Shown here piece after piece: positions 4,527 through 48,541 of a stretch of 64,000 bases of DNA. Below the pieces are notes generated by a model that saw only the letters and a list, made by a program, of their open reading frames with translations, searched no databases and was not told the DNA's origin. Numbering within the stretch: the stretch's first letter is position 1; every line of letters starts with the position of its first letter. The stretch is taken from contig OY821747.1 of NCBI GenBank assembly GCA_963682055.1, positions 25,604,126-25,668,125 on the forward strand, given 5' to 3'. The position numbers and the translations under genes are program-made. Origin of the DNA: Primula veris. Lineage: Eukaryota; Streptophyta; Magnoliopsida; Ericales; Primulaceae.

Positions 4527-9476
<4,950 letters not shown>

Positions 9477-29844: not shown

Positions 29845-30412
29845 TGATAAAACCATAACTTTGGTCGGTCACGTTAGACTTTTCAACAATGATATAATGG
29901 TAAATCAACCGTGAATAAAGGATACTTCCTGATCTTTATTATTGCTCGGATTATTGTCCTTGTTCGGACTATTACATTTGCTCGGATTAGTATTTCGGTT
30001 TTACAATTGTGCTCGATATGACTATTTAATCTCTCGTCTTGATCTTTCTCCCCTTTTATTCGGTGCTCGGCTGTCTTTTCTCGGTTTATTTCTCGAAGTG
30101 ATATGCTTTGGTTAGTTTCTCTCTTTTCTTAACTTCTGTCTATATTTTTTGGATAGATTTTCTGGTCCTTTTCTAGGAGGGGTAGTTGGCTATTTATAGG
30201 CAACTGCGCCTTCTAGGATATTGACAAATGTCTTCATCTCAGGGATTTTTCAGACATGGGTCCCCCTTTGATTGGGCTTGGGCTTTTAATAGTAAAACCT
30301 CAATTCCTATAAAAAGTATGGGATGACCCATTTAAGCATTGGATACCCATTTATAAGGTGGGTTGATTATTACCCAAATAGAATATTCGGGTCTGATTTT
30401 TATGTTCTATCA
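29845..30412 (-). repeat. 3' LTR of the gypsy element, 568 bp
   Basis: It runs TGATA...TATCA and differs from the 5' LTR at seven positions, six of them transitions. In element orientation it has TATAAATAG at 30198-30190 and AATAAA at 29940-29935, the expected order of U3 promoter and R/U5 polyadenylation signal. Confidence 0.97.
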
Positions 30413-30432
30413 AGTGCTCCCTGACTTCCTCG
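30413..30432 (-). other. weak polypurine tract candidate
   Basis: Read in element orientation, the bases just before the 3' LTR are GAGGAAGTCAGGGAGCACT. They are purine-rich but interrupted, and the last three are not purine-rich. This is the expected place for the plus-strand primer. Confidence 0.35.
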
Positions 30433-30596
30433 GCGTGGTTTCCATGTCGGGGGAGTCATGTTCGGTTTGTCGAGAACGTTACTTCGGTCTTGTTTTTCCC
30501 AATGCTTCATCGAGAAACGCAATAGACTCGTGACGGTTCCCAGGGGGGGCACATTTAATGTTTCCTATCCTAATATCTTTCTTCGAGGAAAACTTC

Positions 30597-30604
30597 TATA
30601 AAGG
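30597..30604 (+). promoter_or_regulatory. TATA box of antisense mini-gene A
   Basis: TATAAAGG lies 60 bases before the ATG of ORF A. It is inside the retrotransposon but points against gag-pol. Confidence 0.55.
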
Positions 30605-30656
30605 GGTGTGCTCCCTCCATAATTAGGCATTTTCCTACTAATTTGCCTGTGACATA

Positions 30657-30977
30657 ATGGCTTCTTCTGGTTCTACTGGTGAGAGCTCCTTTAATTATAT
30701 TTCATATTTAGAAACGGAAATTAAGAAATCTCGTACCGCGAATAAGAAACTCGTGGCCAAGGTTTCAGACTACAAGAAAAGGTTGTCTGACATGGATTCT
30801 GATCATCATGTGACGATGGCCGATCGGGATTGGGCCTACGAGCATATAAAGAAGTTCGAGGCTAATCTGGCTAAGCAGAAGGCAACAAAAAGGGCCTATA
30901 AGCTTGCCTTCAAGGAGTTGCATGCTCGGTCTAAACCGAGTTCGGATGACGATGAAGAAGTCTCTTCCTCGAAATAA
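30657..30977 (+). CDS. antisense ORF A, coiled-coil protein, 106 aa
   Basis: Unknown function. It starts MASSGSTGES, then has a Lys/Glu/Asp-rich helical region with heptad-like spacing (residues 20-90) and an acidic-serine tail SSDDDEEVSSSK. The C-terminal block KRAYKLAFKELHARSK is shared with ORF B, so the two are paralogues. A TATA box is 60 bases upstream and AATAAA is about 80 bases beyond the stop (31057-31062), which makes a compact unit of its own. It is encoded on the strand opposite to gag-pol, just inside the 3' LTR. Translation is inferred from ORF integrity and paralogy only. Confidence 0.6.
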   Translation: MASSGSTGESSFNYISYLETEIKKSRTANKKLVAKVSDYKKRLSDMDSDHHVTMADRDWAYEHIKKFEANLAKQKATKRAYKLAFKELHARSKPSSDDDEEVSSSK

Positions 30978-31056
30978 TTAGTCTTTTGTAATTTCTGTCG
31001 TAATTTCTCTTGAATGGGGAGTCTTCTCCTCAGTTGTAATCGAAGTTTTTGAAATT

Positions 31057-31062
31057 AATAAA
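31057..31062 (+). terminator. AATAAA polyadenylation signal after ORF A
   Basis: AATAAA about 80 bases after the ORF A stop, in a U-rich setting followed by TTTTCCTTTCC. The position is typical of plant near-upstream elements. Confidence 0.45.
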
Positions 31063-31223
31063 ATATTTTCCTTTCCTTGTTCTTGTCTGTTTATCTTCTT
31101 GATGTCTTTTTGGATGACTTTAATTGGATTTGGAACTGTGGTTAATTCGCCGTAAATGCTCTTGGGAAGTTCAAGAGGTTGTATTTATTCGAGATGACCT
31201 TTGATCTACTCCTTGTTTCTTCT

Positions 31224-31230
31224 TATAAAA
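31224..31230 (+). promoter_or_regulatory. TATA box of antisense mini-gene B
   Basis: TATAAAA followed by GGGG, 57 bases before the ATG of ORF B. The surrounding CTTATAAAAGGGG resembles the CTATAAAGGGG before ORF A. Confidence 0.55.
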
Positions 31231-31280
31231 GGGGACTGTCCCAGTATTCTTTATGCAGTTCATTCTTTATTAACGAACAA

Positions 31281-31619
31281 ATGGCTTCTTCTCTTGAAAA
31301 CTATGGTGACAACCTTCCTGAATACGTTGCCCGTCTGGAAGAGGAAGTTCAGAAGGTGCGTTATCTCGAGAAGAGGGTTGCCCGGCTGTCGGTGGAAGCT
31401 CGTCAGGCCGCCGAACTAGACGAGCGATTGGATGCCCTAGAGAAGGAGCACCAGAGGTCTTTGCTCGACAGTATTCGTGCTCGTGCCCGGATCAAAGAGC
31501 TCGAGGCCTCCAGAGATAGGCAGCTTGCTTCCAAGAGGGCTTACAAATTGGCCCTTAAGGAAGTGTATGCTCGGTCGAAAAGGAAGCCGAATGACGAAGC
31601 GGGCCCTTCTATGAAATGA
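31281..31619 (+). CDS. antisense ORF B, coiled-coil protein, 112 aa
   Basis: Unknown function; paralogue of ORF A. I start it at MASSLENYGD because that ATG follows the TATA box by 57 bases and matches the MASS start of ORF A; the frame is open further upstream. Residues 15-85 are rich in Leu/Glu/Arg with coiled-coil spacing (RLEEEVQKVRYLEKRVARL). The block KRAYKLALKEVYARSK aligns with ORF A without gaps. The stop is followed by AATAAA at 31681-31686. Third-position changes between A and B in the shared block (e.g. TATAAG/TACAAA for YK) suggest the protein has been kept under selection. Confidence 0.6.
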   Translation: MASSLENYGDNLPEYVARLEEEVQKVRYLEKRVARLSVEARQAAELDERLDALEKEHQRSLLDSIRARARIKELEASRDRQLASKRAYKLALKEVYARSKRKPNDEAGPSMK

Positions 31620-31680
31620 TTTTATTGTTTTCATTGTATTTCCTCTTTGTGCTTCTTCTGTAACGAAGTATCAACCAATC

Positions 31681-31686
31681 AATAAA
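31681..31686 (+). terminator. AATAAA polyadenylation signal after ORF B
   Basis: AATAAA 62 bases after the stop codon of ORF B, followed by a T-rich stretch. Confidence 0.45.
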
Positions 31687-31689
31687 GAT

Positions 31690-32253
31690 TTCTTTTTCTT
31701 GTTTATATCTGAATTACTTTCCCAATGCAATTTATTTTGACTGCGCACGCTTGTGGCCTCATTAATGCTTTTCTTGGGCCTTGCGTTTGATCTTATCCAT
31801 TGGACCTTCTTACTCTTTATATCTAGGGACCAATAGGATTTCTTGAGCCTTGTGCATAAAAAATCTTATTCACCAGAGTTTTCTTTAGCTTTGTGCAAAA
31901 GATCTGGGATATTTATTTGAACCGCTGCCCTTCCCAAAAATGACGCGTGTTTTGCTGCCATTATTACTTACCCCCTTTAAATATTGGTAAGAATCCAAGC
32001 GTTTTGTGAACAAGAGTGGCTTTTAATTACTCACGCTTTTTTAGAACCTTTGGGGAATCCAAACGTTCTTTCTTGAACAGACATCTTTTAATTGCCATCG
32101 CTTCTTAGTACCCATTGGCGAACGGTTGCGACTCTCAATACCAGCCCTCATCTAATTGATCTATAAATACCTGCTTACAGCATGGTTACATCCACAATTC
32201 TTATCATATTATTTTCCCCCATATATAGACCCTCATCTTATAATTTCCCTAAG
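31690..32253 (+). promoter_or_regulatory. upstream region of antisense mini-gene C
   Basis: No ORF of note. TATAAATAC occurs at 32162-32170 and TATATAGAC at about 32222, 92 and 32 bases before the ORF C start. TGACGCGT near 31941 resembles bZIP-type sites. Confidence 0.35.
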
Positions 32254-32547
32254 ATGTCTGGTCCTTTCACCCAATCAGCATTAGCTTTGCAAGTGGAGGC
32301 CTTTGAAGCCTCCTATAACCATGTACAAAGGCTGTTGAGGGATGCCGAGGAGGAATTGAAGGTGATGCGTTATCACCATACCGAGATGGTTCGGGAATTA
32401 ACTTGGCTAAGATCCGAACCGGCTTACTGCCGACGTGCTCGTCAGGCTCTAGTCGAAGAGAATGAGATGCTAAGGGGGAACCCGACACTGAGGGACAGGG
32501 ATGTCTCTGCCGGGCCCTCTCATCGATACCGATCGACTTCCCCCTAA
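32254..32547 (+). CDS. antisense ORF C, coiled-coil protein, 97 aa
   Basis: Unknown function. It starts MSGPFTQSAL, has a Glu/Arg/Leu-rich helical region (residues 20-75, e.g. VQRLLRDAEEELKVM) and ends in a Ser/Arg-rich tail SAGPSHRYRSTSP. The MSGP start is shared with ORF D. An upstream in-frame ATG at 32182 exists, but MSGP is favoured by that match and by position after the second TATA-like motif. A ~500-base pyrimidine tract follows the stop. Evidence for translation is circumstantial. Confidence 0.5.
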   Translation: MSGPFTQSALALQVEAFEASYNHVQRLLRDAEEELKVMRYHHTEMVRELTWLRSEPAYCRRARQALVEENEMLRGNPTLRDRDVSAGPSHRYRSTSP

Positions 32548-33050
32548 CCTTCCCCCTTCTTTTTTTTATTTTTCTCTGCTTTTCCCCATCTTTTCCCATC
32601 TCTTTCTTTTTCTTCTTTTTATTTCTCAGTTTCCATCATTTCTTCCTCTTCCTCTCTTGTGTTTTTTTTTTTTTTTATACTCTGTTCTCTCGTACTTTTT
32701 ATTCTTTTATTTTCCCCTTTCTTTTTTGTTTCATTGACTTCCTTTTTAGTTGTCTGTCTCCTTCATTTCTTTATCTTCTTCTCATCTGTTTTTCTTCTGT
32801 GCCTCCTCTTTCTTTTTCTTCATCTTCTCTCCCATCACTCTTTTTCTTTTTTCTTTTTTTTTTTGCACCACTACGATGTAACAATCAGCCCTGTGATCCA
32901 AAGGGTTTTGTGTTACATTTAGGGTTGGTCATTTTTCTTTTTGACTCTTCTTTCTTATCACTTCTTCTTTTCTTGCACTCTTCTTCTTTTCCTCTTCTTG
33001 CTTTTCCTTTCTCTTTCTTCTTACTTTTTCTTTTTGGCGTCTCCTGCTCA
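32545..33050. repeat. ~500-bp polypyrimidine (plus) / polypurine (minus) tract
   Basis: The plus strand is almost only C and T in long blocks such as TTCTTTTTCTTCTTTTTA. In the sense orientation of the retrotransposon it is a giant purine-rich stretch. ORFs in it are composition artefacts (strings of F, L and S). Confidence 0.85.
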
Positions 33051-33097
33051 CTTGGTCAGCTGATATAGTTGATCCTTTGCCTGATCTTCTGTACTAG

Positions 33098-33262
33098 CTC
33101 TTCTCGGATGTAATAGATCTTTTCGGATGTAATAGGTTTTCTTTTCGGATGTAATAGGTTTTCTTTTCGGATGTAATAGGTTTTTATCTCGGATGTAATA
33201 GACCTTGATGTAACAGACCTCGATGTAATATTGTCTTTTGATGTAATGAACAATGATGTATT
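33098..33262. repeat. short tandem repeat with GGATGTAATAG motif
   Basis: About eight copies of a GATGTAAT core recur, the first four with a ~26-base period (CTTTTCGGATGTAATAGGT) and later ones degenerate. Both minus-strand ORFs over this stretch are repeat artefacts. It lies in the 3' region of ORF C. Confidence 0.75.
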
Positions 33263-33394
33263 CCATCTTCATTAATGAAAAGTATTTTTGCCCTTTTATT
33301 TTTGCATTTCTTTTTATATTGTACCTGTGGTTTGTTGTTTGTCTGGAATCTAGATCTTTGAATATCTCGTCTTTATTTCTTCTGCACTGTAGTC

Positions 33395-33540
33395 TCAGAT
33401 GTCAGTAGATGTCCCCATCACTGTCAAGCATATGTGCATGCTCCCTAGTAGGTCAGGAAATGTGCATGCCCCCAAGCATGTCAGGAAATATGCAATTTCC
33501 CAAGCAAGGTCATAAAATATCATACTCTCCGTTCTATAAG
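33395..33540 (+). promoter_or_regulatory. promoter-like region of antisense mini-gene D
   Basis: Three imperfect repeats of AGGTCAGGAAATGTGCATG-like sequence, containing RY-type TGCATGC cores, lie just before TATAAG at 33535-33540. ORF D begins about 100 bases later. The order of repeated upstream motif, TATA and leader looks like a compact plant promoter. Confidence 0.4.
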
Positions 33541-33637
33541 TACTTCTCTTTTCTTTGGTAGTTTATCATCTCTTTTTTCTTTTTGCTTCTCTCTTCCTCA
33601 GCCCTTTATTTTCTTCCGTACTAAACAATTTCTCAGA

Positions 33638-34117
33638 ATGTCTGGACCTGTGGTGAGATATCATGCTCAGATGAAGGGTTTGGACACTGAGGTATCTCGG
33701 GTCCGCCGTCGGATGGCAAGGCTTGAGAAAGAGTATGGCGTTTTGGCCTTGAGCTTGTTCGGCTCTTATCCCGAAGAGACGGTGAAGTGGACCAAGATCT
33801 CGGCACTGAGTCGCCAGCTCGATCACTTGTTGCTACAGAGAAACCATCTGGCCAACTCCTGGTATGATGCCGAGGAAATTTGGGACCATTCTCAAGATGA
33901 GTTTGACAACTCTCCTCAAGGCCTAGCTAGCATAATGGTAAAGAATGCTCGGCTCGTGGAGCGCGTCAGGGTTCTTACTACGGAAAACAACAGCCTCTCC
34001 TCGGAGAATGACAATTTGGTCGCCATGAACGATTCCTACCAAGCTCGGTTGGATTGTTCTGCTCGTTTTGCTTTCTCTCGGTCTGGCAGTTCGGTTTTTC
34101 CACCCATTGATCCTTAG
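33638..34117 (+). CDS. antisense ORF D, coiled-coil protein, 159 aa
   Basis: Unknown function. It starts MSGPVVRYHAQMKGLDTE, followed by a strongly charged coiled coil (VSRVRRRMARLEKEYG) and a second one near residues 105-140 (NARLVERVRVLTTENNSL), and ends FSRSGSSVFPPIDP. It is the largest of the single-exon antisense mini-ORFs. A TATA box lies at 33535. I find no AATAAA directly after the stop. Confidence 0.55.
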   Translation: MSGPVVRYHAQMKGLDTEVSRVRRRMARLEKEYGVLALSLFGSYPEETVKWTKISALSRQLDHLLLQRNHLANSWYDAEEIWDHSQDEFDNSPQGLASIMVKNARLVERVRVLTTENNSLSSENDNLVAMNDSYQARLDCSARFAFSRSGSSVFPPIDP

Positions 34118-34260
34118 ATTGGGCTGGTTTTCTTATGTATTTCCCCTTTTGCCATTTGTGTTTTATTTTCTGTATTTGATGAATCAGTTGTATCTTCTCG
34201 TATCTCGTGCCTGTCTTGTGAGCCATTGTAACGCTTCGTACTTTGTGCCTTTTGATTTTC

Positions 34261-34268
34261 TATAAATG
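34261..34268 (+). promoter_or_regulatory. TATA box of antisense mini-gene E
   Basis: TATAAATG, 89 bases before the ATG of ORF E, followed by CTCCCT, a sequence also found after the TATA box of ORF A. Confidence 0.5.
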
Positions 34269-34349
34269 CTCCCTATTGCCTGTATCTCGTTACAAATTCT
34301 TCCTCTCTCTCTTGTTTTATAATTTGCTTCTAACTTGCTTTTGCGTGAG

Positions 34350-34712
34350 ATGGATCCCATCACTAGGTCTACCTCCAAAAAGAAAGCCCTTATGGAAGAG
34401 GAGCCTACTTTTTTGCTACCTCGTCCCCCTGGCTTTGGGGAGGAGGATTTGACTCCTCTTCAACTAAAAGAAATTGAGATGTCATGGCTGAAACATGATC
34501 TCATGTGTGCTCGGACTGAAGCGAGGAGGTTTAAACAATATTGGGACGAGGAGGGCACTGCTCGTTTCAAGGCCGAGCAAAAATGCGAGTCTCAGTCTTA
34601 CGCCTTGAAACAGGCTGAGATGGCGATTTCTCGTTTGGTTAGGGAGAAGGAGCGTCTGGAGGAACTTTTGGCGAAGAGGGATGTTGCTATGGGGGATAGT
34701 TCGAAAAAGTAG
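34350..34712 (+). CDS. antisense ORF E, coiled-coil protein, 120 aa
   Basis: Unknown function. It starts MDPITRSTSKKKALMEEE, contains a proline-rich patch (LLPRPPGFGEEDLTPLQL) and then a long charged helix rich in Lys/Glu/Arg/Ala to the end (QAEMAISRLVREKERLEELL). It ends GDSSKK. A TATA box is 89 bases upstream and AATAAA is 56 bases after the stop (34768-34773), so this is the most complete promoter-ORF-signal unit of the cassette. Confidence 0.6.
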   Translation: MDPITRSTSKKKALMEEEPTFLLPRPPGFGEEDLTPLQLKEIEMSWLKHDLMCARTEARRFKQYWDEEGTARFKAEQKCESQSYALKQAEMAISRLVREKERLEELLAKRDVAMGDSSKK

Positions 34713-34767
34713 GATGGGTGTATTTTCTTTTTCTGTTGTATTGTTTGTGTTTCCCCCTTTGTGGATG

Positions 34768-34773
34768 AATAAA
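34768..34773 (+). terminator. AATAAA polyadenylation signal after ORF E
   Basis: AATAAA 56 bases after the stop, followed by CTTGTC and T-rich sequence. Confidence 0.45.
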
Positions 34774-34779
34774 ACTTGT

Positions 34780-35413
34780 CTTGCACTTGATTCTGTCCTA
34801 TTTTATTTCCTGTTTGCTTCTCTTTTATGTTTCTGAGCATACACCGAACAATATGCCCGGTTATCCCCCCGGAGAGTGTTGTTAGACTTGATGCTCCCTG
34901 CCATCAAGCTAGAAACGGTCTTCGTCCACCTTGTTCGGTGTGCCCTTTTGGTAAGGATTGGTTGGGAGTCGAGGAACTTTAATCGGGGGATATTCTCGGT
35001 GTGATAGTAGTGGTAGCGTATGTGGGAAGCTTTTCGTGGTAGGGTCCACTGGCCGTTTATTTAGGTCTAATGATATGAACTGCCTTGGGTAGTGGGATAC
35101 GCGCTGACGTGGTGAAATCTGGAGCGTTTATATGTTAAAAAGAGCAGCGGTTGTTGACTTTTGTATGGTTGGAAAAAAAGGTAAACCTCTGTTACACGAA
35201 AGGACGGTTATTATTTTATTCTTTTTGTGACTCCACTCCTTTCTATTGTGCCAAGTAATCCTGTTTTATTTTTATCACAGAATTTGCTGAAGAAAATATC
35301 GCTTTCTCTAAAGCATATTCTGCCCGCCAAAAAGGAAAAGAGTGCGGCCGCTTGATCTAGGGTTTCGTGGTTTTGTTGGAAGACTTGCTGTTGTTCGCGC
35401 TTGCTTGCTCATA
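34780..35413 (+). promoter_or_regulatory. upstream region of the multi-exon antisense gene
   Basis: No convincing ORF. It has a GCTGACGTGG element near 35103 that resembles bZIP (as-1/G-box-like) sites. No clear TATA box is seen; TTTATATG near 35128 is weak. Confidence 0.3.
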
Positions 35414-37859
35414 ATGATTACTGTAAGTGATTTTTCGTTCTCCCCCCTTCCCTCTTTTAGGAGTTGTATTTGATTTGTCGTTGTGGTCATAGGTGTGTCG
35501 TTGGTATATGGTTCAGGTTATCTATATATGTCTGATGATTTTTATGTATCTGGTTAATGTGTGTGTGTGTGGGGGGGGGGGGGGGGGGGGTGGTGGCGCT
35601 CGTTATATTGATGTGGTTCTTGTTTGTGTATTTGGTTAGTATATTGATGGACTTTTGATGATGTTTGGATAGGAAATTATGAGCCAAAGTGTGGCCCAAA
35701 TTGGCACATTCGTAGAAAAGGATTTTAAGGAGCTTGCCGGAATACCTGACAACATACATATCCGGCTTCCTATTTCTGACGAGGAGGTGCTGGGATTTGT
35801 TCCTGCCGGCGAGGTGGTTGTGCGCTCTTCGGCATTCTTCACTGGGGGTCTTCGACTGCCCTTTACAAACTGGGTGGCTTCGTTCTTTGAGGCCGTCCAG
35901 ATTGCTCCGGCCCAACTGACCCTAAATGGTTACCGTACTCTGAATGGTATCCAAAGGTTATCGGAGCTGTCCGGAATACCGATTGAACTGAAGGATGTCT
36001 TCGGAGTCTATAGTTTGAGCTTTGAGCGTCGCAGCTCGTATCTGAAAACCTTGCGTTCCTTTTGCCGGCTCGTTATCGGTTTGCCGGATACCAACAAAGA
36101 GTGCAATCTTGGTATTGTTATTGCGTCTGGTGAATGGGCTTGTCCGGGACACCAGATTCCTAGGCCGGCTACCAATGCTCCCACTATGCCAGACCTCGGA
36201 GCTCCCAATGTAGAGGCTCTGTTAGCTCTTTGGAAATGGTGGGGGCCGGGACCGACGCCAGATCCGGCGAGTCGTAGTGCCCCGATGCTGCTCGGGTACC
36301 CGATGGGGTCGGTGACCAAGGGGAATCCTGCGCCCGAAATCCCCAAAGAGCCCGAAGAAGAGTTCTTGAAAGTGGTCCGGGCTCGAAGTGCTGCTCGGCT
36401 CGGGAAGAAGCTCGTTCGGTCTAAGCGTCATGCGTCTGACCCTGTTGGTGGAGTAACGAAGAGGGCCAGGGGAACCGATACATCGGTTACCGAGGAGGCT
36501 GATATCGTTGGCTCGGGCGAGGGGACGGTGGCTGCCGCCGAAGGGGATACCGCCGAGGATGCCTCTGCGCCGGGCGAGGTATGTGTATATGTATTATGAT
36601 TTTCTTGTCTTTTGGTTGTTTGTCATTTTGTTCGCTAGTGCTTTGCTTTATTAGTCATCTTGTTTCAGCTACTGACTTCTCCATTGGTTACCCTCGCTCT
36701 TGCCCGGTCTATGGGTATTATTGTGTTTCAGGGGTCGATCGACGATGTATTCGGACATATGAACCTCTTGACTAACATGGGAGAGGGTACGATGACTTTG
36801 CCTGTCATCTCGCCTATCCCCACTGAGGGTCCGATAGATTTGCCCGTTTGCTCGCCCCTCCGTACTGAGGAAGAGATCGAGCATAGGGCCCCTGAGATTG
36901 ATCAGTTGGAGGAGGACGTGGGGGTGGAAATGGAAGGCAGCGAAGAGAATGCCGGGGATGTTGTGACGGGTGTCGAGGATGAGGCTCTCGACGGATCCGA
37001 GAAGGTGTTGGTTGACGGGGTTGTAATGACCCGTTACATTGACCGATGTAGGGGTGAACTGCTGGAGCAACCGCGAACCTTGAAGATGGGGTATACGGCT
37101 CTAAAACCCCTTGTGTTCAAGGATGCAGAAAGACTATCTGCCCAACCTACAATGTCGGTTATAGAGCAGGCCCACGCGGATGCGCTGAGGGTACGTGGGG
37201 CTCGTATTTCGCTATATAGGTCTGGTACTTGTATTTTATTTGGAATCTAATGTGTTGAAGTGCAGATTGCTGTGAGTACCGTGGCGCTACGGGATCAGCT
37301 GGGAGCTCTAGGGGCTGAGAAAGAGAAGCTGGTGGCCGAGAAGGAGAAATTGGTCGCCGAGAAGAAAACCCTGGGCGAGAATTATGACAAGCTGTCGGTG
37401 GACTTTCTGCACCTGACCGAGGATGTCGAGAAATGGAAGGCGGAAAAGGAGAGCATGGTCGTTAAGTACGGCGAACTAGAGGAGGAGAACTTGCTCCTGG
37501 CAGAGGACGTGGAAGCCGAAAAGGCTAAGGTGTCTGCCCTGAAAACGGCACATGCGGAGGAGCGGACAAAGTTAGCGATGATGGCCAACTTCTCTGTATA
37601 TTGCGCTCATGTGCGGGCGCTCAATTTCGTGAATGTTCCTTTGTCGGATAGGGCGTGGTCGGAGTTGGTGTATCCGTGTCCGCATGGTGCACCGCCGAAA
37701 CCCTTGGACTGGGCGAATCTTCGTGAAGAAGAGCTTCCTCGGCTACCGGGACAGACAATTTCGACAGCGCTGCGTCCTCGCTCTATGTCGGCCCCGTCCA
37801 CTCCTCGACCGGATGCTACTGTTGTTCCCCCACCAGTATCTCCTCAGGTGGAACCTTGA
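35414..37859 (+). CDS. multi-exon antisense gene, PF04195-like 'putative gypsy-type transposon' protein, ~655 aa
   Basis: Exons: 35414-35422 (a nine-base first coding exon, ATGATTACT), 35673-36578, 36732-37190, 37266-37859. All have GT-AG borders and keep frame; translation could instead begin at ATG 35679. The first large exon has the layout of the plant family PF04195: GEVVVRSSAFFTGGLRLPFT, then FEAVQIAPAQLTLNGYRTL and LKDVFGVYSLS. The middle is acidic and disordered. The last exon is a long coiled coil with tandem KLVAEKE repeats and ends with a proline/serine tail. Such proteins are known as antisense extra ORFs in Tat-type retrotransposons; their role is not established. An intronic GT run followed by 20 G (35571-35590) is present. 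Introns show it is written to be spliced in this orientation, not as part of the genomic RNA. Confidence 0.65.
35571..35590. repeat. 20-base poly-G tract after a GT microsatellite
   Basis: A (GT)n stretch passes into 20 consecutive G residues within the first intron of the antisense gene. The length may be unreliable. Confidence 0.85.
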
Positions 37860-38058
37860 CTATCTTTCTAGCAGTATGTATTTTTTTTTTTTTTTTGGTC
37901 TCTTGTGTATCTAGAAACAGATTCTTTTGGGGAAGTGATAATATAGGTGCTGTGGTTTCTTTCTGTTGGGCTTTCTTGGGTTAATTTTTTTTGATGGTCG
38001 TCATATTTTGAAGGATGTGAAAACAAAATATTGTCAGGTACCAAATAACCCCCTTGCC

Positions 38059-38631
38059 ATGGTGGTCTGGACCTCGCCTAGTCGTAGTGTAGGTGACGTA
38101 ATGGAAGATTTGGAAAGATCTAACGCGTCCCTGACCGCGAAATTGACTTGTGCTTATCAGGAAATCGAGGGTCTGAATATTCATATTTCCAACTTGGCGA
38201 TCCGGTTACGTGATTTGGGAGAGAAATTTAGTAAAAAGACCGCCCATTATACGGCAAATAAGGGTAAAGCAAATGAACTTCTCGGTGCCCTACGACGTTC
38301 TCGTGATGAAGCCCGAGGTCGTGTGACGAGCTTGAGCTTGGTCCTTGGGGCCGTTTTCGAGGACGCGGATCTGCTGCTATCCTTTGCCAAAGCGTATTGG
38401 GCCCGAGCTCGCGCCTTAGAGGTGCTGGAGCATATAAAATGAATGAGTGGTGTGTCCCGGGCAGAGCGCATGGTGGATGCGAAGGCCGGGGTAACTGAAA
38501 CCACTGTTGCCTTGAACCGAATCGAGGCGGTCATTCGTGAGCGTTTGGGGATGCAAATTAATTCATTGCGAGATATTCATTTTGCCGATGTAGTAGAGAC
38601 TTCGGCGTCTGTTGAGGGGTTGTCGGATTAA
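38059..38631 (+). CDS. antisense ORF F, coiled-coil protein, split by an in-frame TGA
   Basis: The frame 38059-38442 (127 aa, MVVWTSPSRSVGDV...) stops at TGA, and the next codon is an in-frame ATG that opens a further 62 codons (38443-38631). The second part continues the same helical character (IEAVIRERLGMQINSL). Either this is one ORF of 190 codons with a nonsense change or readthrough stop, or two abutting ORFs. The sequence CAG just before 38040 could be a splice acceptor, making it a downstream exon of the preceding gene. No recognised domain. Confidence 0.45.
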
Positions 38632-38681
38632 TGAAGTAGCTTGTTTTGTCGTTTTCTTTGTAGCTTGTATAAAAAATTCTC

Positions 38682-38741
38682 TCTTTTTTTTTTTTTTTTT
38701 TTTTTATTCATCTCTTCTCGTTCTTCTCCCCCCCCCCCCCC
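38682..38741. repeat. T- and C-homopolymer tracts
   Basis: About 24 T, then a short spacer and 14 C, then 11 T and ATATAG. This looks like an extended polypyrimidine tract before a splice acceptor at about 38759 that would lead into ORF G. Confidence 0.7.
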
Positions 38742-38770
38742 TTTTTTTTTTTATATAGGCACATGCTACT

Positions 38771-39409
38771 ATGTCGCACCAGGCTGGTTCTCCATGCCTA
38801 GTTAACCCGGGGTTAGGACCTACTGGTGCTGCCCGGGACGAGGTCTCATCTGGTGCGGCTAGTGAGGTGCCTGACAGGTGGCCCTACATTGTTTTGATGA
38901 GCAAAAATGTCAAATTGACCGACCAATGTGCTCGACTGCGGACCAAGCTAAAAACCCAGGCGGCCTCTTTTCGAGAATACGTTCGCCGTGCCGAGCATGC
39001 TGTTGAGGTTCAGGAGCGTCGTTTGGATCGATATTGGCGTGAAAAGGACGAGTACTTCGGCAAATTAAAGTTGCTTGTGACCAAGGCCAACGTGTTGGTG
39101 AAGTATTTCCGTTTGTCCCGTGCCAGATACGATGCTTCCGCAGCTATGATCGAAGCTCGCCGTAACCTCTCCTTTGACGATGATCGCCGTAAAGCGGCCT
39201 CGGATGCTCACGAGTTCGCGAAAGAAGCCGAGTTCAACGCGCGGCTTCAGACACTGACTTGTGTTGGGGCTCATACGACCAATTTTGATGCCCTCATTTC
39301 TGAGGAGCGTTTTGATGGTGATGAGTCTGATGGGTACACAACGACGGATGACGAAGAGATTGAGCTCGGTCAATTACCGTCGTGCTCCTCCTGCAGTAGC
39401 TCTTCTTAA
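38771..39409 (+). CDS. antisense ORF G, coiled-coil protein with Ser/Cys-rich tail, 212 aa
   Basis: Unknown function. It starts MSHQAGSPCLVNPGLGPTG. Residues 45-160 form charged helices (DQCARLRTKLKTQAASFREY; RRLDRYWREKDEYFGKLKLL). An acidic segment (GYTTTDDEEIELGQ) and the tail CSSCSSSS follow. A likely splice acceptor (TTTTTATATAG) is 12 bases upstream of the ATG, so it could be the last exon of a longer transcript. It is the antisense ORF nearest to the convergence point with gag-pol. Confidence 0.5.
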   Translation: MSHQAGSPCLVNPGLGPTGAARDEVSSGAASEVPDRWPYIVLMSKNVKLTDQCARLRTKLKTQAASFREYVRRAEHAVEVQERRLDRYWREKDEYFGKLKLLVTKANVLVKYFRLSRARYDASAAMIEARRNLSFDDDRRKAASDAHEFAKEAEFNARLQTLTCVGAHTTNFDALISEERFDGDESDGYTTTDDEEIELGQLPSCSSCSSSS

Positions 39410-39705
39410 ATGAATCTCTTTAGTGTCGATGATCTTCTTGTTGCCTCCGTAATGCGGGCGAGGACTATTTATGTTATTTCTTTATTCCTGTTTTGTACCT
39501 TTCCATTGCCGTATTGCTATTTAATTGATTGGATCGATTTTTCCTTGCTAAATCATTTGTTATTTCGTTATTCCTGTTTTGGAGATGCTTCTTGTTGATA
39601 TTTTGTTGTTTAGATTGATTCTCCTTCATTGTTTTAGCCAATTTATATTGCATCGCCGCCGTAATATGGACCTGAATAATTCCTTGCATTGTACCTGCAT
39701 ATAAA

Positions 39706-40409
39706 TTTCATAGTATTCCTAGGCGTTCCTTCGGTAACACGCCATGTTGGGAATTTCATAGTATTCCTAGGCACTTCGGCCATGTTGGGAATTTCATAGT
39801 ATTCCTAGGCGTTCCTTCGGTAACACGCCATTTACGGAATTTCATAGTATTCCTAGGCACTTCGGCCATGTTGAGAATTTCATAGTATTCCTAGACGTTC
39901 CTTCGGTAACACGCCATTTACGGAATTTCATAGTATTTCTAGGCACTTCGGTCATGTTGAGAATTTCATAGTATTCCTAGACGTTCCTTCGGTAACACGC
40001 CATTTACGGAATTTCATAGTATTCCTAGGCACTTCGGCCATGTTGAGAATTTCATAGTATTCCTAGACGTTCCTTCGGTAACACGCCATTTACGGAATTT
40101 CATAGTATTCCTAGGCACTTCGGCCATGTTGAGAATTTCATAGTATTCCTAGACGTTCCTTCGGTAACACGCCATTTACGGAATTTCATAGTATTTCTAG
40201 GCACTTCGGCCATGTTGAGAATTTCATAGTATTCCTAGACGTTCCTTCGGTAACACGCCATTTACGGAATTTCATAGTATTTCTAGGCACTTCGGCCATC
40301 TTGAGAATTTCATAGTATTCCTAGACGTTCCTTCGGTAACACGCCATTTACGGAATTTCATAGTATTCCTAGGCACTTCGGCCATGTTGGGAATTTCATA
40401 GTATTAGTA
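39706..40409. repeat. compound tandem repeat, ~87-bp unit, about eight copies
   Basis: Two sub-units alternate. Both open with GGAATTTCATAGTATTCCTA. The longer (~48 bp) continues GGCGTTCCTTCGGTAACACG and the shorter (~39 bp) GGCACTTCGGCCATGTTGA. Eight of each are visible, with few changes. The array lies exactly between the stop of the last antisense ORF and the gag-pol stop, that is, in the 3' untranslated region of the retrotransposon. Confidence 0.92.
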
Positions 40410-40541
40410 GACAGCATAATAATATATTTTATTCATTCAAAAGAAGAAAGATAATGCCATTAAGCAAGAAGGGTAAGGTAGCACTTGTACTTGTATTCGG
40501 AGCATTGCCTATACGTAGTACTTCTTTAAGTTAGCCACATT

Positions 40542-43500
40542 CTAAGAATTCTTTTCCCCTCGGCTGTTGGCGAACAGGACGCTTTTGATTTTGTAAGAGA
40601 CTGGACTTGTTTGCTTGACGATTTCGTATGGGCCTTCCCAGGTAGGGCTTAGTTTGCCATGTATTTCGTTGCGGGTATAGACCGTCACTCGTCGCAGCAC
40701 CAGTTCTCCTACCATGAATTCTTTAGACCCTTTTACTCTCTTGTCATAGGTTTGCTTCACGCTTTGTTGGTACTTAGCTAGGGTAAGGGCCGCTATCTCT
40801 CGTTTCTCGTCTATCATGTCGAGCTCTTCTCTCATTCTTTGTTCATTATTTCCCTGCTCGACCAACGTCGTTCGGAGCGTGGGTAGCCCGATCTCTGTCG
40901 GTATGATGGCCTCAACACCGTATGCTAAGCTAAACGGGGTTTCCTTGGTGCCCGTCTTGGGTGTAGTTCGGCACGACCATAAAACGTTGAGTAGCTGCTC
41001 GGGCCACCTCCCCTTTGCCTGTTCAAGGGTGGTCTTGATGCCGTCAAATATTGTTCGGTTTGACACTTCGGCTTGCCCGTTCCCTTGTGGGTATGTCGGC
41101 GTCGAATAGAATTTTCGGATACCGAGTTCCTCGTACCACAGCTGTAAATTGGCATCTTTGAACTGGGTTCCGTTGTCGGCGACTATAGCGTACGGTATAC
41201 CGAACCTAGTTATGATGTATTCCCAAATGAATTGTTTGACGTTGCTGGCTTTGATTTCTCGGAGGGGTTTAGCTTCCACCCATTTGGTGAAATAATCAGT
41301 CGCAACGATCAGATATTCCACATTCCCAGGTGCTCTTGGGAGTTTACCGACCAAATCAATTGCCCATTGAGCGAACGGCCATGGTGCTGATACCGGGGTC
41401 ATCATAGATGAAGGGAGCCGTGGTATCTTGGCGAATCGTTGGCACTTGTCGCATCGTTGGACGTATGCATCGGCGTCTCGCTTGATATAGGGCCACCAAT
41501 ATCCTTGGGTCACTGCCTTGTTTGCAAGGGATCGCCCTTTGATGTGTGCTCCGCAAGATCCTTCGTGGATTTCCTCCAAGACCGGCAGTTGTAGCTCGGT
41601 CGGGACGCACAGTAGATGTGGTCCCCGGTAACTGGATTTGTATAGTTTATCGTCCTCGGATAGCCAGAAGCGAGGAGCTTTTCTTGTAATTTTCAGCGCT
41701 TTTATCTTGTCGACCGGAAGCGTTCCACTTCGCAGATAATGGGTCATGTCCTCCATCCATCCTAGTTCGTACTGTATCGATGTCACCCGGTTTACCCTTT
41801 TTATTATGCTCGGGGTCGGCAGTAGTTCCACTGTGATCGACCGGGTGTCGGTCAATGTTAATGTCAAGGCTAGGGTGGCCAATGCATCGGCATGTGCATT
41901 CTCGGTGCGATTGATTCTTACTAACTCGCACTGTTCGAAGGTTGCCATCAAGCTTTGGACTTTCTCTTGGTAGAGGATCATTCTATCATCTTTCGCTTGG
42001 TACTCGCTGATGGCTTGATTGACGATGAGCATGGAGTCTGAGCTTGCAATTAAGTGGGAGCATCCGAGGGACCGGGCAATAAGCATGCCATTTATCATGG
42101 CCTCGTATTCTGCCTCATTGTTGGTAGCTCGGAAGCCCAGTTTTATGCTTTTTTCGATGATTGCTCCCTCTCTAGACTTTAGGACGATCCCTGCTCCTGA
42201 TCTGTCCTTGGTGGTTGATCCGTCGACATGTATCTGCCAGTGTGATTGTGGAGAGAGTGCCAAAGGCTCGTCATAGCCTTCGGTGAATTCTGCGATGAAA
42301 TCGGCCAGGACTTGTCCCTTTATGGCATGGCGGGGTGCGAACTCGATATGAAATTGGGATAGCTCGACCCCCCAGGCGACAACTCGGCCGCTAATGTCCG
42401 TCCGTCGAAGTGACTCTTTAATATGAAATTTTGTGTATACCCGGACCTGATGAGCTATGAAATAGTGTGGCAACTTCCTGGTTGCGACGACCAATGCCAG
42501 GCACAGCTTTTCCAAGGGTAGATAACGTGTTTCGGCTTCGACCAGAGTCTTGCTGACAAAGTAGATCGGAAATTGTTCGCGACCTTCTTCTCTTAGGATG
42601 ACCGCGCTCACAGCTGTAGCGGAAACTGCTAGGTAGCATGACAGAATGTCTCCTCTGTTCGGCCTTACTAGCAGTGGCAATGTCCTCAAGTACTCTTTGA
42701 GATTGTTGAATGAATCTTCACATTCCGGGTCCCAGACGAATTTTCTATCCTTCTTGAGTGATTCGAAAAATGGCCGTCCCTTATCTGCGGATCGGCTAAT
42801 GAACCTGCTCAGCGCGGCCATCATTCCCGTGAGCTCTTGTACCTGTTTCTTATTCTTGGGCGCTGCTAGGTTTCGTAGAGCCGTTATTTGATCGGGATTA
42901 GCCTCTATTCCTCGTCGGCTAACCATATGCCCCAAGAATTTCCCTTTGCTGATGCCAAATGCACACTTGCTCGCATTGAGTTTCAGTTTGTGCTCGCCCA
43001 GCGTTCGGAAAACGTCCCTGATATCTTGAAGGTGGGATGTGGCTCTTTCGCTCTTGACGACCATGTCGTCTATGTATACCTCCATCGTCTTCCCTATATG
43101 ATCTCGACATACTCTTGTTATCATCCTTTGGTATGTTGCTCCCGCATTGCGTAGGCCGAACGGCATTACCGTATAGCAATAATTTCCCAAAGGTGATATA
43201 AACGAAGTCTTTTCTTGATCTTCGCGGGCGAGGGGAATTTGATGGTATCCTGAATATGCGTCAAGGAAGGTCATCCGTTCTGCCCCCGCAGTTGCGTCCA
43301 CCAGTTGATCAATCCTCGGAAGGGGAAAGTGGTCCCTCGGGCAGGCTTTGTTGAGGTTTGTGAAGTCTATACATACTCTCTCCTTCCCGTTCTTCTTAGG
43401 GACGACAACCGGGTTGGACAACCATTTTGGATAGTAAACCTCTCTTATGGCTCCAGCCTCCAATAACTTTTGTACTTCAGCGATTATAGCTGCTCTGTGC

Positions 43501-46427
43501 TGTACAGACACTTTCCTGCTCCTCTGTGCTATCGGCTTGTACTCGGTGTTTACACTTAGGTGGTGGCATGCCGTATTGGGGTCTAGGCCCGGCATATCCT
43601 TAGGACTCCAGGCGAATTTATCAGTGTTGTTGAGAAGGAATGCTTTCAACTCCTCGGATTCCCGTTTTGGAAGGTTGTCGCCGAGGAGGAAGTAATGCTC
43701 CTCGTCCATACCTGGTATATACACCTTCCTGAGTGTCTCTCGTACTTGTTCTTCGACAACCCTTTCGGCTTTGGATATTTGGTTGATCAGCTTCTTGGTG
43801 CTGGTGGGTTGTTCCACCATGCTTCGTTGTTTTTGGAGAGTCGCGGTGATTTCCTCGCAGCGTCTTGAATCCTCTTGACATCCTCTGGCTGTCTCGATCT
43901 CTCCCCTGTCATTTGGGTATTTGACCTTTTGGTGATAGGTCGAGGGTATGGCCTTCATGGCATGTAACCAAGGTCGGCCCAATATTGCATTGTGACCGGA
44001 GTGGTCATTAACCACTAAGAACTCCACGGGAACCGACACGGACCCGGTTGTGACACTGAGGACGATCTTACCCAACGGTTTAGTCGTTTCGGAGATGAAT
44101 CCGATCAGTGTGACGTCAGTAGGCCGTAGATCTTGCAGCTTGAGTTCCATTTTGTCGAAGAGCTCCCTGTACATGATATCACAAGAGGCTCCTTGGTCGA
44201 CAAGTACCCTGCCGACCGTGTCTAGGCCAATTTGAACTCGGAGGTTAATGGCGTCTCCATGGGGGTAAATCACCCCTTCTTCGTCAAGATCCGAGAAAGA
44301 AATGGGCGGAAGTCGTCGTTGTGTGCATTGTCGTTTAAAGCTCGACGCCTGTGATGCCTTGGATACTTGGCCAAAGTGGGCCAACTGCCGTTGTCGCGAT
44401 CGTTCCCCGCCTGGACCCTTGGGTCTTGTCATATGAACGACGTTGATCGTTTTGCCTTGCCGGTTGTCGGATCCTTCGATGGCCAGTTGTTTGCCTTTAT
44501 TCCCAGCTCCTTTGATGAACTTGGCTAGGTATCCTGCATCGCCCCACTGGTTCATTCTCCATCGCAGGTTACGGCAATGCTCAGTGAGATGGCCGTGATC
44601 CTCGTGATATGCGCAGAAGAGTTTGGAATCTCTCTGATTGGGGGGAGAGATGATCGGTTGTGGTCGGGAATACCAACTTTCCCTGCATATATCCTTGAGG
44701 ATATCTTCAGCAGATAGGTTGAAAGTGTATCGCAGCTCGACCGGTCCGAAAGTGTTTCGGTGTTCCCTCTCTTGGGGCCGAACTTGTTGAAATGGCTTGG
44801 GTGGCATCGGGTAGGTGAGCTGGAGCGGTTTATGTTCGTTGGTCGGTGTTGGGTATGCGATCTGGAGCGGTTTGGGCTCTAGTGCTCGTGGTCGCTCTAC
44901 CCTGCTATGGACCTCGGGCTCTTTGCCCTTTCTGGTCGGTTGGAATGCTTCTTCCTGGTTATTCCTAACTCTTTTGCGACCCACCTGTGCCTCGCGGACC
45001 GACTCTCTTCTCGGTAGAGTTCGGTTGAGGAAACGCAGTTCGTCGTTTTTATCGGTGAGGTGGGTACAATAGGCTAGCAGGGAATCAGTGGTCGGGAAGT
45101 TTTTGCCTATGAACTTCCTTCTCGCCCAATAGCAATTAGGGATGGAATTGATAAAGTTTTGGATGGCTATATTATTGGCATATCGTGGAATCTGGTTTGC
45201 TACGTCGATAAAACGTATGCAGTAATCGTTGAGCCTTTCATTTGGCATCATCGCCATTTTAAGAAGGGTTTCGATACTAACCTTCTTTTTCCGATGAGCA
45301 GCGTATCGGGTGGAGTATGCTCTTAGCAATTCTGCCCAGTTTCTAATGGAGCCGCGTGGTAAGTTATGATACCATGACGAAGCCTCTTGACCCAAGCTGT
45401 TTTTGAAAAATTTGCACATCAGTGCATGGTCATCACTCCACAGTTCCATCTTCGTCTTGTAGTGCCTCAGATGGTCGATAGGGCAACTCTTCCCATCATA
45501 GAGCCTGAATTCGGGGATGACGAATCCCATAGGATTGCGGTACCGCGTGATCTGTTCAGCACATGGGGTTTCTTGGCATACGTTCCAAGCCTGTTGGAAC
45601 GCGTCATCCGTGACTTGGTAGGGGGGAGGGTATCCTCCCTGATGTGGTGATGGGCCATATCCTTCCCCGATCCTGTATTCGGGATATCTACCGTCCTTCG
45701 TGTTTGTGTGGACACGTTCCATATGAGTGTTCGGATGGACGATAGTTATTGGGACATTGCCCCCTTGGTGGGGGACTCTTGTATCGGGTCGCCGACCCGC
45801 TGCCTCTAGGGCGGCCCTGTAGGCAGAATCTTCCACTTCATGGCGTGGGTCCTTGTCGGGTTGGATAACTGGCAATACGATGCCGGCCGCTGTCATGGCC
45901 GTCATGCATGCCGCCAGCTGAGCTTGTAGCTGGGCGTAGTTCCTTTCATCGGCTAACGGAACAACATGTTGTACCTCCACCGTGGGTGGTGTAATCATCC
46001 TCGGAGAATTAGTCGGTAGTCGGGGCGACTGTCCGAGTACATGATCCTCGGGCATGCCAAACTGATGAGCTTCGTCCGTTTGTAAACGAGCACCGGAGTT
46101 GACCGAGGCTGTAGGCAAAGGGACTCTTGAGCTCGGCCCTGCTTGGGACCCGGTTAAGCGTCTTCGTGCACGCCTTAATACGGGCACGTCTTGTTCGTCC
46201 TCCGAGGACGAAAGGTGTTCGTCGACAATCCCTTCGATGAAATGTCGGGGTGGTTCGACCGGTTGTTCTTGGTTGACGTAGGAGGTTGTTGGTTGGTTTC
46301 CGGATTGGATAGCTTCATATCTGTCGCGGATAGCGAGTAGATCGTCGAGGTCTTGTTGGCTAATTTGCGTGTTTTGGTTATTGGTTTCTACTATCTCGGG
46401 ATGGGTTTCCTCTACATTGGTAACCAT
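40542..46427 (-). CDS. gag-pol polyprotein of Tat-type Ty3/gypsy element, 1961 aa
   Basis: One uninterrupted frame. Domains in order: disordered N-terminus; retrotransposon gag about 300-470; zinc-binding CAYHEDHGHLTEHC at 605-618; aspartic protease around Asp744 (VDQGASCDIMY); reverse transcriptase about 990-1175 with Asp1056 and YIDD at 1118-1121; gypsy RNase H about 1260-1340; archaeal-type RNase H about 1396-1520 with Asp1402, Glu1440, Asp1464 and Asp1514; integrase with an HHCC zinc finger near 1620-1663 and DD35E residues Asp1691, Asp1751 and Glu1787. It makes the capsid and enzymes for reverse transcription and integration. The first RNase H lacks its aspartates (LAVSATAVSAV, VYTKFH), so the second probably supplies the activity. 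There is no frameshift or stop between gag and pol. Several plus-strand ORFs over this gene are shadows. Confidence 0.97.
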   Translation of the reverse strand: MVTNVEETHPEIVETNNQNTQISQQDLDDLLAIRDRYEAIQSGNQPTTSYVNQEQPVEPPRHFIEGIVDEHLSSSEDEQDVPVLRRARRRLTGSQAGPSSRVPLPTASVNSGARLQTDEAHQFGMPEDHVLGQSPRLPTNSPRMITPPTVEVQHVVPLADERNYAQLQAQLAACMTAMTAAGIVLPVIQPDKDPRHEVEDSAYRAALEAAGRRPDTRVPHQGGNVPITIVHPNTHMERVHTNTKDGRYPEYRIGEGYGPSPHQGGYPPPYQVTDDAFQQAWNVCQETPCAEQITRYRNPMGFVIPEFRLYDGKSCPIDHLRHYKTKMELWSDDHALMCKFFKNSLGQEASSWYHNLPRGSIRNWAELLRAYSTRYAAHRKKKVSIETLLKMAMMPNERLNDYCIRFIDVANQIPRYANNIAIQNFINSIPNCYWARRKFIGKNFPTTDSLLAYCTHLTDKNDELRFLNRTLPRRESVREAQVGRKRVRNNQEEAFQPTRKGKEPEVHSRVERPRALEPKPLQIAYPTPTNEHKPLQLTYPMPPKPFQQVRPQEREHRNTFGPVELRYTFNLSAEDILKDICRESWYSRPQPIISPPNQRDSKLFCAYHEDHGHLTEHCRNLRWRMNQWGDAGYLAKFIKGAGNKGKQLAIEGSDNRQGKTINVVHMTRPKGPGGERSRQRQLAHFGQVSKASQASSFKRQCTQRRLPPISFSDLDEEGVIYPHGDAINLRVQIGLDTVGRVLVDQGASCDIMYRELFDKMELKLQDLRPTDVTLIGFISETTKPLGKIVLSVTTGSVSVPVEFLVVNDHSGHNAILGRPWLHAMKAIPSTYHQKVKYPNDRGEIETARGCQEDSRRCEEITATLQKQRSMVEQPTSTKKLINQISKAERVVEEQVRETLRKVYIPGMDEEHYFLLGDNLPKRESEELKAFLLNNTDKFAWSPKDMPGLDPNTACHHLSVNTEYKPIAQRSRKVSVQHRAAIIAEVQKLLEAGAIREVYYPKWLSNPVVVPKKNGKERVCIDFTNLNKACPRDHFPLPRIDQLVDATAGAERMTFLDAYSGYHQIPLAREDQEKTSFISPLGNYCYTVMPFGLRNAGATYQRMITRVCRDHIGKTMEVYIDDMVVKSERATSHLQDIRDVFRTLGEHKLKLNASKCAFGISKGKFLGHMVSRRGIEANPDQITALRNLAAPKNKKQVQELTGMMAALSRFISRSADKGRPFFESLKKDRKFVWDPECEDSFNNLKEYLRTLPLLVRPNRGDILSCYLAVSATAVSAVILREEGREQFPIYFVSKTLVEAETRYLPLEKLCLALVVATRKLPHYFIAHQVRVYTKFHIKESLRRTDISGRVVAWGVELSQFHIEFAPRHAIKGQVLADFIAEFTEGYDEPLALSPQSHWQIHVDGSTTKDRSGAGIVLKSREGAIIEKSIKLGFRATNNEAEYEAMINGMLIARSLGCSHLIASSDSMLIVNQAISEYQAKDDRMILYQEKVQSLMATFEQCELVRINRTENAHADALATLALTLTLTDTRSITVELLPTPSIIKRVNRVTSIQYELGWMEDMTHYLRSGTLPVDKIKALKITRKAPRFWLSEDDKLYKSSYRGPHLLCVPTELQLPVLEEIHEGSCGAHIKGRSLANKAVTQGYWWPYIKRDADAYVQRCDKCQRFAKIPRLPSSMMTPVSAPWPFAQWAIDLVGKLPRAPGNVEYLIVATDYFTKWVEAKPLREIKASNVKQFIWEYIITRFGIPYAIVADNGTQFKDANLQLWYEELGIRKFYSTPTYPQGNGQAEVSNRTIFDGIKTTLEQAKGRWPEQLLNVLWSCRTTPKTGTKETPFSLAYGVEAIIPTEIGLPTLRTTLVEQGNNEQRMREELDMIDEKREIAALTLAKYQQSVKQTYDKRVKGSKEFMVGELVLRRVTVYTRNEIHGKLSPTWEGPYEIVKQTSPVSYKIKSVLFANSRGEKNS

Positions 46428-46486
46428 TGTCGCTCGTCTGGCAGAGTATTGGTATTCGAATTCTAAACTAGTTGGGAACTAGATGA

Positions 46487-46504
46487 TTCCCACAGACGGC
46501 GCCA
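46487..46504 (-). other. primer-binding site
   Basis: Two bases inside the 5' LTR the element reads TGGCGCCGTCTGTGGGAA. The first nine bases match the complement of the 3' end of plant tRNA-Asp (CGGCGCCA), after which the match is poor. Position and TGG start are right for a minus-strand primer site. Confidence 0.75.
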
Positions 46505-46506
46505 TT

Positions 46507-47074
46507 TGATAAAGCCATAACTTTGGTCGGTCGCGTTAGGCTTTTCAACAATGATATAATGGTAAATCAACCGTGAATAAAGGATACTTCCTGATCTTTA
46601 TTATTGCTCGGATTATTGTCCTTGTTCGGACTATTACATTTGCTCGGATTAGTATTTCGGTTTTACAATTGTGCTCGATATGACTATTTAATCTCTCGTC
46701 TTGATCTTTCTCCCCTTTTATTCGGTGCTCGGCTGTCTTTTCTCGGTTTATTTCTCGAAGTGATATGCTTTGGTTAGTTTCTCTCTTTTCTTAACTTCTC
46801 TCTATATTTTTTGGATAGATTTTCTGGTCCTTTTCTAGGAGGGGTAGTTGGCTATTTATAGGCAACTGCGCCTTCTAGGATATTGACAAATGTCTTCATC
46901 CCAGGGATTTTTCAGACATGGGTCCCCCTTTGATTGGGCTTGGGCTTTTAATAGTAAAACCTCAATTCCTATAAAAAGTATGGGACGACCCATTTAAGCA
47001 TTGGATACCCATTTATAAGGTGGGTTAATTATTACCCAAATAGAATATTCGGGTCTGATTTTTATGTTCTATCA
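46507..47074 (-). repeat. 5' LTR of the gypsy element, 568 bp
   Basis: It runs TGATA...TATCA. In element orientation, TATAAATAG (46860-46852) drives the genomic RNA and AATAAA lies at 46602-46597. It is 98.8% identical to the 3' LTR. Confidence 0.97.
46852..46860 (-). promoter_or_regulatory. LTR TATA box
   Basis: TATAAATAG on the minus strand, about 215 bases into the 5' LTR. It is identical in the 3' LTR (30198-30190). Confidence 0.65.
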
Positions 47075-48417: not shown

Positions 48418-48541
48418 CATTGCCATGCATCTTTTATTAAAGATTATCCACCATAGTAGCTTAACAATAAAGAAACAATCATACAAAACTTCCATTATTT
48501 CATTTACAACTCTTTTACCCCTAAGCTTGTGAGTTGTGAAT

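Follow-up and report, generated by a model that had tools for sequence, protein, structure and literature searches.

Five candidate antisense genes next to the 3' LTR of a probable Retand-type retrotransposon in Primula veris

The DNA analysed here, referred to throughout as the window, is a 64-kb stretch of the Primula veris genome that contains a long retrotransposon. Between pol and the 3' LTR of this element lies a region whose main open reading frames are read from the strand opposite to gag-pol. The original prediction described five small ORFs in this region, A to E, as separate antisense transcription units, each with a promoter of its own. Are they indeed genes, or are they parts of one longer antisense unit, secondary features of a functional antisense RNA, or sequence that the element merely carries along? 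With a probability that we put at about 0.6, the best explanation is a Retand-type element that possesses the usual antisense gene of the Transposase_28 type (TRP28) and, in addition, a block of five self-contained antisense genes. Most likely, A to E are genuine genes, each transcribed separately and encoding a small helical protein.

The element and its lineage

The element spans positions 29845-47074 of the window on the minus strand (17.2 kb). Its two minus-strand LTRs, the 3' LTR at 29845-30412 and the 5' LTR at 46507-47074, are each 568 bp long and differ by 7 mismatches over 568 sites, and a target site duplication, GTCAC, flanks the element at either end. gag-pol is a single intact ORF of 1961 aa (40542-46427, minus strand). 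The element is a young plant retrotransposon. The Pfam domains of gag-pol comprise gag, protease, RT, RNase H, an extra RNase H (RVT_3) and integrase; the paired LTRs, the target site duplication and the order gag-PR-RT-RH-INT are those of Ty3/gypsy elements.

Ogre and Retand elements are described as having in common an extra RNase H that lies between the regular RNase H domain and integrase (PMC6317226). Here, RVT_3 occupies residues 1401-1519 of gag-pol, between RT_RNaseH, which ends at 1359, and the integrase zinc-binding domain, which starts at 1608, a position that places the element in the Tat clade (Ogre or Retand). Ogre elements typically possess an additional ORF upstream of gag. No such ORF is present before gag in this element, as just 79 nt separate the gag ATG (46427) from the 5' LTR (46507). 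Because there is no space for an ORF before gag, because the element includes a Transposase_28-like gene in antisense, and because a tandem array of an 86-bp unit (8.2 copies, 39704-40412) adjoins pol, Retand is the best fit, and the element is probably a Tat element of the Retand type.

In its dimensions, the element departs from those in the survey of Retand elements by Vicient (2025), where the region between pol and the 3' LTR ranges from 2,933 to 6,566 bp and the internal region reaches at most 12,869 bp (PMC11963269). The corresponding values here, 10.1 kb and 16.1 kb, both lie beyond the ranges reported in that source. The block of ORFs A to E accounts for 4.4 kb beside the 3' LTR (30413 to about 34790), and subtracting it leaves about 5.75 kb between pol and the 3' LTR, which is a usual size.

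No further copy of the element or of its ORFs was found in the 64-kb window by blastn (E 1e-3) or tblastn (E 0.01). Scans of IMG/VR with pol and TRP28 exon 1, and of GTDB with ORF B, returned pattern matches and zero confirmed relatives from collections that are poor in plants and may omit the window's own genome. When ten stop-to-stop frames around the element were scanned, four passed the Pfam cut-off; fragments of host genes near the element, at 6416-6808, 12012-12377, 24235-24939 and 48533-48910, correspond to ADH_N, RabGAP-TBC, proline dehydrogenase (E 4e-39) and DUF1262. Elsewhere in the window, a 359-bp unit occurs in three tandem copies with 90% matches (56445-57528), and tandem repeats of 31 bp and 117 bp (53576-54459) overlap a stop-free stretch of 155 codons (53599-54066).

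Signals around the antisense reading frames

All five small ORFs lie on the plus strand at the predicted positions, opposite to gag-pol, and the distances to their candidate signals are as originally claimed: a TATA motif 57-103 nt before each ATG, and AATAAA 56-80 nt after the stop codons of A, B and E. Nearest to the 3' LTR, ORF A (30657-30977, 106 aa) has its TATA box (CTATAAAGG) at 30597-30602, 60 nt before the ATG, and AATAAA at 31057-31062, 80 nt past the stop. ORF B (31281-31619, 112 aa), a paralog of ORF A with which it has the motif KRAYKLAxKExxARSK in common, follows a TATA box (TTATAAAAGG) at 31224-31229, 57 nt before its ATG, and is itself followed after 62 nt by AATAAA at 31681-31686. 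The TATA box of ORF C (32254-32547, 97 aa) lies 92 nt before the ATG, at 32162-32167 (CTATAAATA), and a second TATA-like site, TATATA, is found 32 nt before it; an ATG further upstream, at 32182, precedes the start site that the TATA box predicts. For ORF D (33638-34117, 159 aa), the box is the TATA-like TATAAG (CTATAAGTA) at 33535-33540, 103 nt upstream. Finally, ORF E (34350-34712, 120 aa) is preceded by 89 nt by the TATA box CTATAAATG (34261-34266), and AATAAA stands at 34768-34773, 56 nt past its stop. Within 260 nt downstream of ORF C, ORF D, TRP28, ORF F or ORF G, AATAAA is absent. The long T-rich stretch past ORF C, possibly a long 3' UTR, contains a 22-bp tandem repeat (TCTTTTCGGATGTAATAGGTTT, about 4.8 copies, 33099-33201).

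The number of antisense frames exceeds what chance predicts. Ten plus-strand ORFs of at least 95 aa occur in 30414-39617, whereas 300 simulations with an order-2 Markov model yielded 2.4 on average and never more than 7. Three of the ten are fragments of the TRP28 gene, and ORFs B and C are counted among them from upstream ATGs; on the minus strand, there are two versus a simulated mean of 2.2. The initial statement that every substantial ORF of the region runs opposite to gag-pol holds for A to G and TRP28, but it overlooks three sense-strand ORFs of 90-110 aa, whose number is about that predicted by chance.

The placement of the TATA motifs is similarly distinctive. A TATA-like site is present 40-110 nt upstream of all five ORF starts, a distance range that was picked post hoc; when five spacer positions were drawn at random 20,000 times, this outcome never occurred. 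Five of the six plus-strand matches to YTATAAR in the 9.2-kb cassette are the boxes of A to E, this form of the motif having been fixed only once the five boxes had been inspected. When TATAAA, TATAAG and TATATA are pooled, each strand contains 13, and 6 of the 13 on the plus strand precede A to E; since such motifs are equally numerous on both strands, it is their placement, and not their abundance, that constitutes the signal. The three plus-strand AATAAA hexamers of the cassette all stand behind the stops of A, B and E, for which the simulated chance is 2e-5, calculated with a window of 50-90 nt that was also defined post hoc. On the minus strand, which is that of the genomic RNA, 30413-39617 contains 21 AATAAA against the three on the plus strand, and full-length RNA must therefore read through many canonical poly(A) hexamers.

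If transcription is assumed to start 32 or 40 nt past the TATA box, the first ATG encountered is the ORF start in all five cases; with a start at 25 nt, this is true of four of the five, ORF B being the exception. The ORFs also differ in composition from their surroundings, with a GC content of 0.44-0.53 versus 0.34-0.42 in the T-rich spacers. Relative to composition shuffles, their codon usage tends toward that of gag-pol (z 2.3-3.0, versus -0.0, 1.7 and 0.5 for the three sense-strand ORFs), by a measure that is weak frame by frame, as for A, D and E another frame outscores frame 0. ORFs F and G, with z values of 1.4 and 1.8, do no better than one of the sense-strand ORFs (1.7).

No promoter module common to A to E was detected: when their upstream regions were compared two by two, all 10 alignments scored no better than shuffles, and nothing beyond the TATA motif recurs. 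One candidate for a recurrent signal was the 8-mer TGCTCCCT, which has five plus-strand copies, one at the junction with the 3' LTR and two beside TATA boxes, and itself averages 0.4 copies per simulated cassette. It was rejected because the best 8-mer of a simulated cassette averages 4.6 copies and attains up to 7 (200 simulations).

Beyond ORF E lies the TRP28 gene (35679-37859, plus strand, 650 aa), for which three exons are predicted at 35679-36578, 36732-37190 and 37266-37859. Their joins are GT-AG and keep the frame, and a further intron in the 5' UTR is possible at about 35423-35672. The match to PF04195 (Transposase_28; E 0.0036, 17.9 bits, positions 2-58 of 69) falls below the Pfam cut-off of 26.2 bits. 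ORF F is at 38059-38442 on the plus strand, within a region (38038-38634) that opens at an AG acceptor, in the same frame as TRP28 exon 3; it is interrupted by an in-frame stop at 38440-38442 and then continues for 62 more codons. Because of this acceptor and of the open codons past the stop, ORF F may be an exon, either an alternative last one or a broken one, rather than a gene. The frame of ORF G (38771-39409, plus strand, 212 aa) likewise opens at an AG acceptor-like site. Both ORFs are found where they had been placed, with the status of ORF F as a gene now in doubt.

These features of TRP28, F and G raise the possibility that A to E are in turn exons or cistrons of one long antisense unit that also includes those three. 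TRP28 looks spliced, and the AG sites at which F and G open would suit such an arrangement; for ORF F, it is likely. Yet each of A to E has a TATA box, a first ATG and a stop codon, and in A, B and E an AATAAA precedes the next unit, so that for the row as a whole a single unit is quite improbable.

Conservation, relatives and predicted proteins

A separate line of evidence that A to E are genes comes from the similarity of ORFs A and B. Their local alignment scores 149, versus a maximum of 54 among shuffles, and lies 18-19 SD above these. Over 105 codons, the two differ at synonymous sites with pS 0.69 and at nonsynonymous sites with pN 0.40; in the conserved C-terminal block of 30 codons, the values are 0.79 and 0.22. 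Neutral simulation to the same pN produces a mean pS of 0.51 and attains the observed 0.69 in 1% of 300 runs, and for the C-terminal block, which was selected post hoc, the simulated mean is 0.32 and the observed 0.79 was reached in 0 of 500 runs. In the N-terminal part, the excess of changes at third positions is not significant (p 0.075). From this comparison, A and B are old paralogs, with synonymous sites near saturation and a conserved C-terminus; their split is much older than the present insertion, and both proteins were kept. A descent of A to E from TRP28, F or G was also considered and rejected, as only A-B stood out among 28 pairs (19 SD), followed by B-TRP28 at 3.8 SD.

Protein searches yielded six relatives, on contigs of 0.7-5.4 kb that may come from one plant or several. 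ORF A matches P0004 at 101 of 106 residues, ORF B is 97% identical to P0001, and ORF D is 97% identical to P0003 and 81% identical to P0006, with 31 differences over 159 aa and no gap. The first exon of TRP28 is identical to P0002 at 291 of 302 residues, and ORF G to P0005 at 210 of 212. For ORFs C, E and F, no match was found by a composite search of seven ORFs among the 7995 candidates scored, which were those sharing most words; in a control with the same rows reordered, 5%-mutated copies of all seven ORFs were detected. As 21% of neutral simulations, with indels ignored, reach 30 changes without a stop, the pair of D and P0006 does not by itself prove selection.

The conservation of A and B bears on whether the block is a passenger, that is, sequence taken up from the host or elsewhere and carried along by one family, with ORFs that are intact only because the element is young. 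With LTRs that differ at just 7 of 568 sites, little decay is to be expected, and the protein searches gave close relatives only; furthermore, the proteins of extra ORFs are described as highly heterogeneous and their function has been questioned (PMC6317226). Nevertheless, the split between A and B long predates the insertion, and both are intact, as are the relatives of A, B and D, which were found by a search that can return intact frames only. We thus regard a passenger block as unlikely.

The same data weigh against a second alternative, in which it is the antisense RNA itself that functions, by base-pairing to the genomic RNA in its 3' portion and tuning silencing or copy number, while the ORFs are secondary. 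Antisense RNA and siRNA have been raised as a possible role of such transcription (PMC7264820), and the TATA boxes are compatible with either view. Against this alternative stand the conservation of the A/B protein while synonymous sites are near saturation, the position of the ORF start at the first ATG past the predicted start site, and the ungapped relative of ORF D with 81% identity. An RNA function in place of a protein function is unlikely, while effects of antisense RNA may coexist with a function of the proteins.

The original prediction also held that all five proteins look coiled-coil, and the support for this is moderate. When heptads are scored by a home-made method, each of A to E has a best window that outscores between 92% (B) and 99.5% (D) of its own shuffles. 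For ORF D alone, there is a structural model, based on an alignment of three sequences, that contains three long helices (residues 4-40, 45-91 and 94-148) at a mean pLDDT of 74. Searched with Foldseek, this model had no match at E 0.001 or below (best 0.033), and the matches listed include designed three-helix bundles and other long-helix proteins; against PDB sequences, ORF D gave four weak matches, the best at E 0.08. For the first exon of TRP28, a model from two sequences had a pLDDT of 29 and was not usable, and a search of PDB sequences gave zero matches at E 1.

Together, the placement of the signals, the ORF statistics, the A/B paralogy and the close relatives of A, B and D favor the view of A to E as separate antisense units with their own promoters, as first proposed. 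Each unit would consist of its own TATA promoter, a short leader and one ORF of 97-159 codons, with a canonical poly(A) signal in three of the five. Host RNA polymerase II would produce short mRNAs that run antisense to the LTR transcript, and small helical, probably oligomerising accessory proteins could thereby be made independently of gag-pol and without splicing of the genomic RNA. We infer both the transcription of A to E and the assembly of their products as coiled coils. As to their function, the best guess, by analogy with gene23 of Grande, would be that they assist the element beside the TRP28 protein in a nuclear or regulatory role.

Comparison with known antisense genes of retroelements

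Much of this arrangement is expected in a Retand element, namely the antisense orientation, TRP28, a second larger antisense ORF and the 86-bp array. TRP28 is already known as an antisense ORF of Retand elements, and the survey by Vicient reports 104 antisense ORFs of at least 600 bp in 63 clusters, which means that several per element were already known (PMC11963269); the earlier statement that single antisense ORFs are known was thus too narrow. The unusual part is the 4.4-kb block with five antisense ORFs of 97-159 aa, which are additional to those of the survey and fall under its 600-bp cut-off (PMC11963269).

We found no description of a row of small antisense genes in a plant LTR element in our searches of open-access papers, and the assertion that such a row is not a standard description is borne out to that extent. 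There is a concrete blind spot, as the cut-offs given in the two surveys considered here, 600 bp (PMC11963269) and 250 codons (PMC6317226), both exceed 97-159 codons, and rows of the size of A to E would be passed over. According to these sources, ORFs under 200-250 codons are omitted, with the exception of TRP28 in one of them (PMC11963269, PMC6317226).

If A to E are real genes, a single LTR retrotransposon would run about eight genes (gag-pol, TRP28, G and A to E) from two strands and separate promoters, which would narrow the gap in gene economy between plant retroelements and complex retroviruses and would provide compact targets for studying the role of antisense accessory proteins. A more far-reaching and tentative reading, to which we give less than even odds, is that of a multi-gene antisense accessory regulon, with five tiny monocistronic genes under their own promoters, interacting helical proteins and long-term purifying selection, that grew in part by duplication within retroelements, as for A and B. 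Were this so, its layout would make the element a counterpart, in plants, of complex retroviruses, and other plant LTR elements would contain comparable rows of mini-genes that lie hidden under the cut-offs of past surveys.

Among the closest known systems is gene23 of maize Grande, which is antisense and transcribed from its own promoter (Gomez-Orte 2013, as cited in PMC7264820). Like gene23, the candidates described here would be antisense accessory genes between pol and the 3' LTR; unlike Grande, with its one gene, this element would have five small ones beside a TRP28-like gene (PMC7264820). Antisense ORFs downstream of pol also occur in PvRetro13, RIRE2 and the Retand element of Silene, and some of these ORFs have SMC or Transposase_28 domains; a row of separate small units, as proposed here, is not described for them in the parts of that source consulted (PMC7264820). 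A more distant parallel is provided by HBZ of HTLV-1 and other antisense retroviral genes, which are alike in principle, in that an accessory protein arises from the antisense strand (PMC11963269, PMC7264820). The antisense promoter of HBZ, however, lies in the 3' LTR (PMC7264820), whereas the TATA boxes of A to E are internal to the element.
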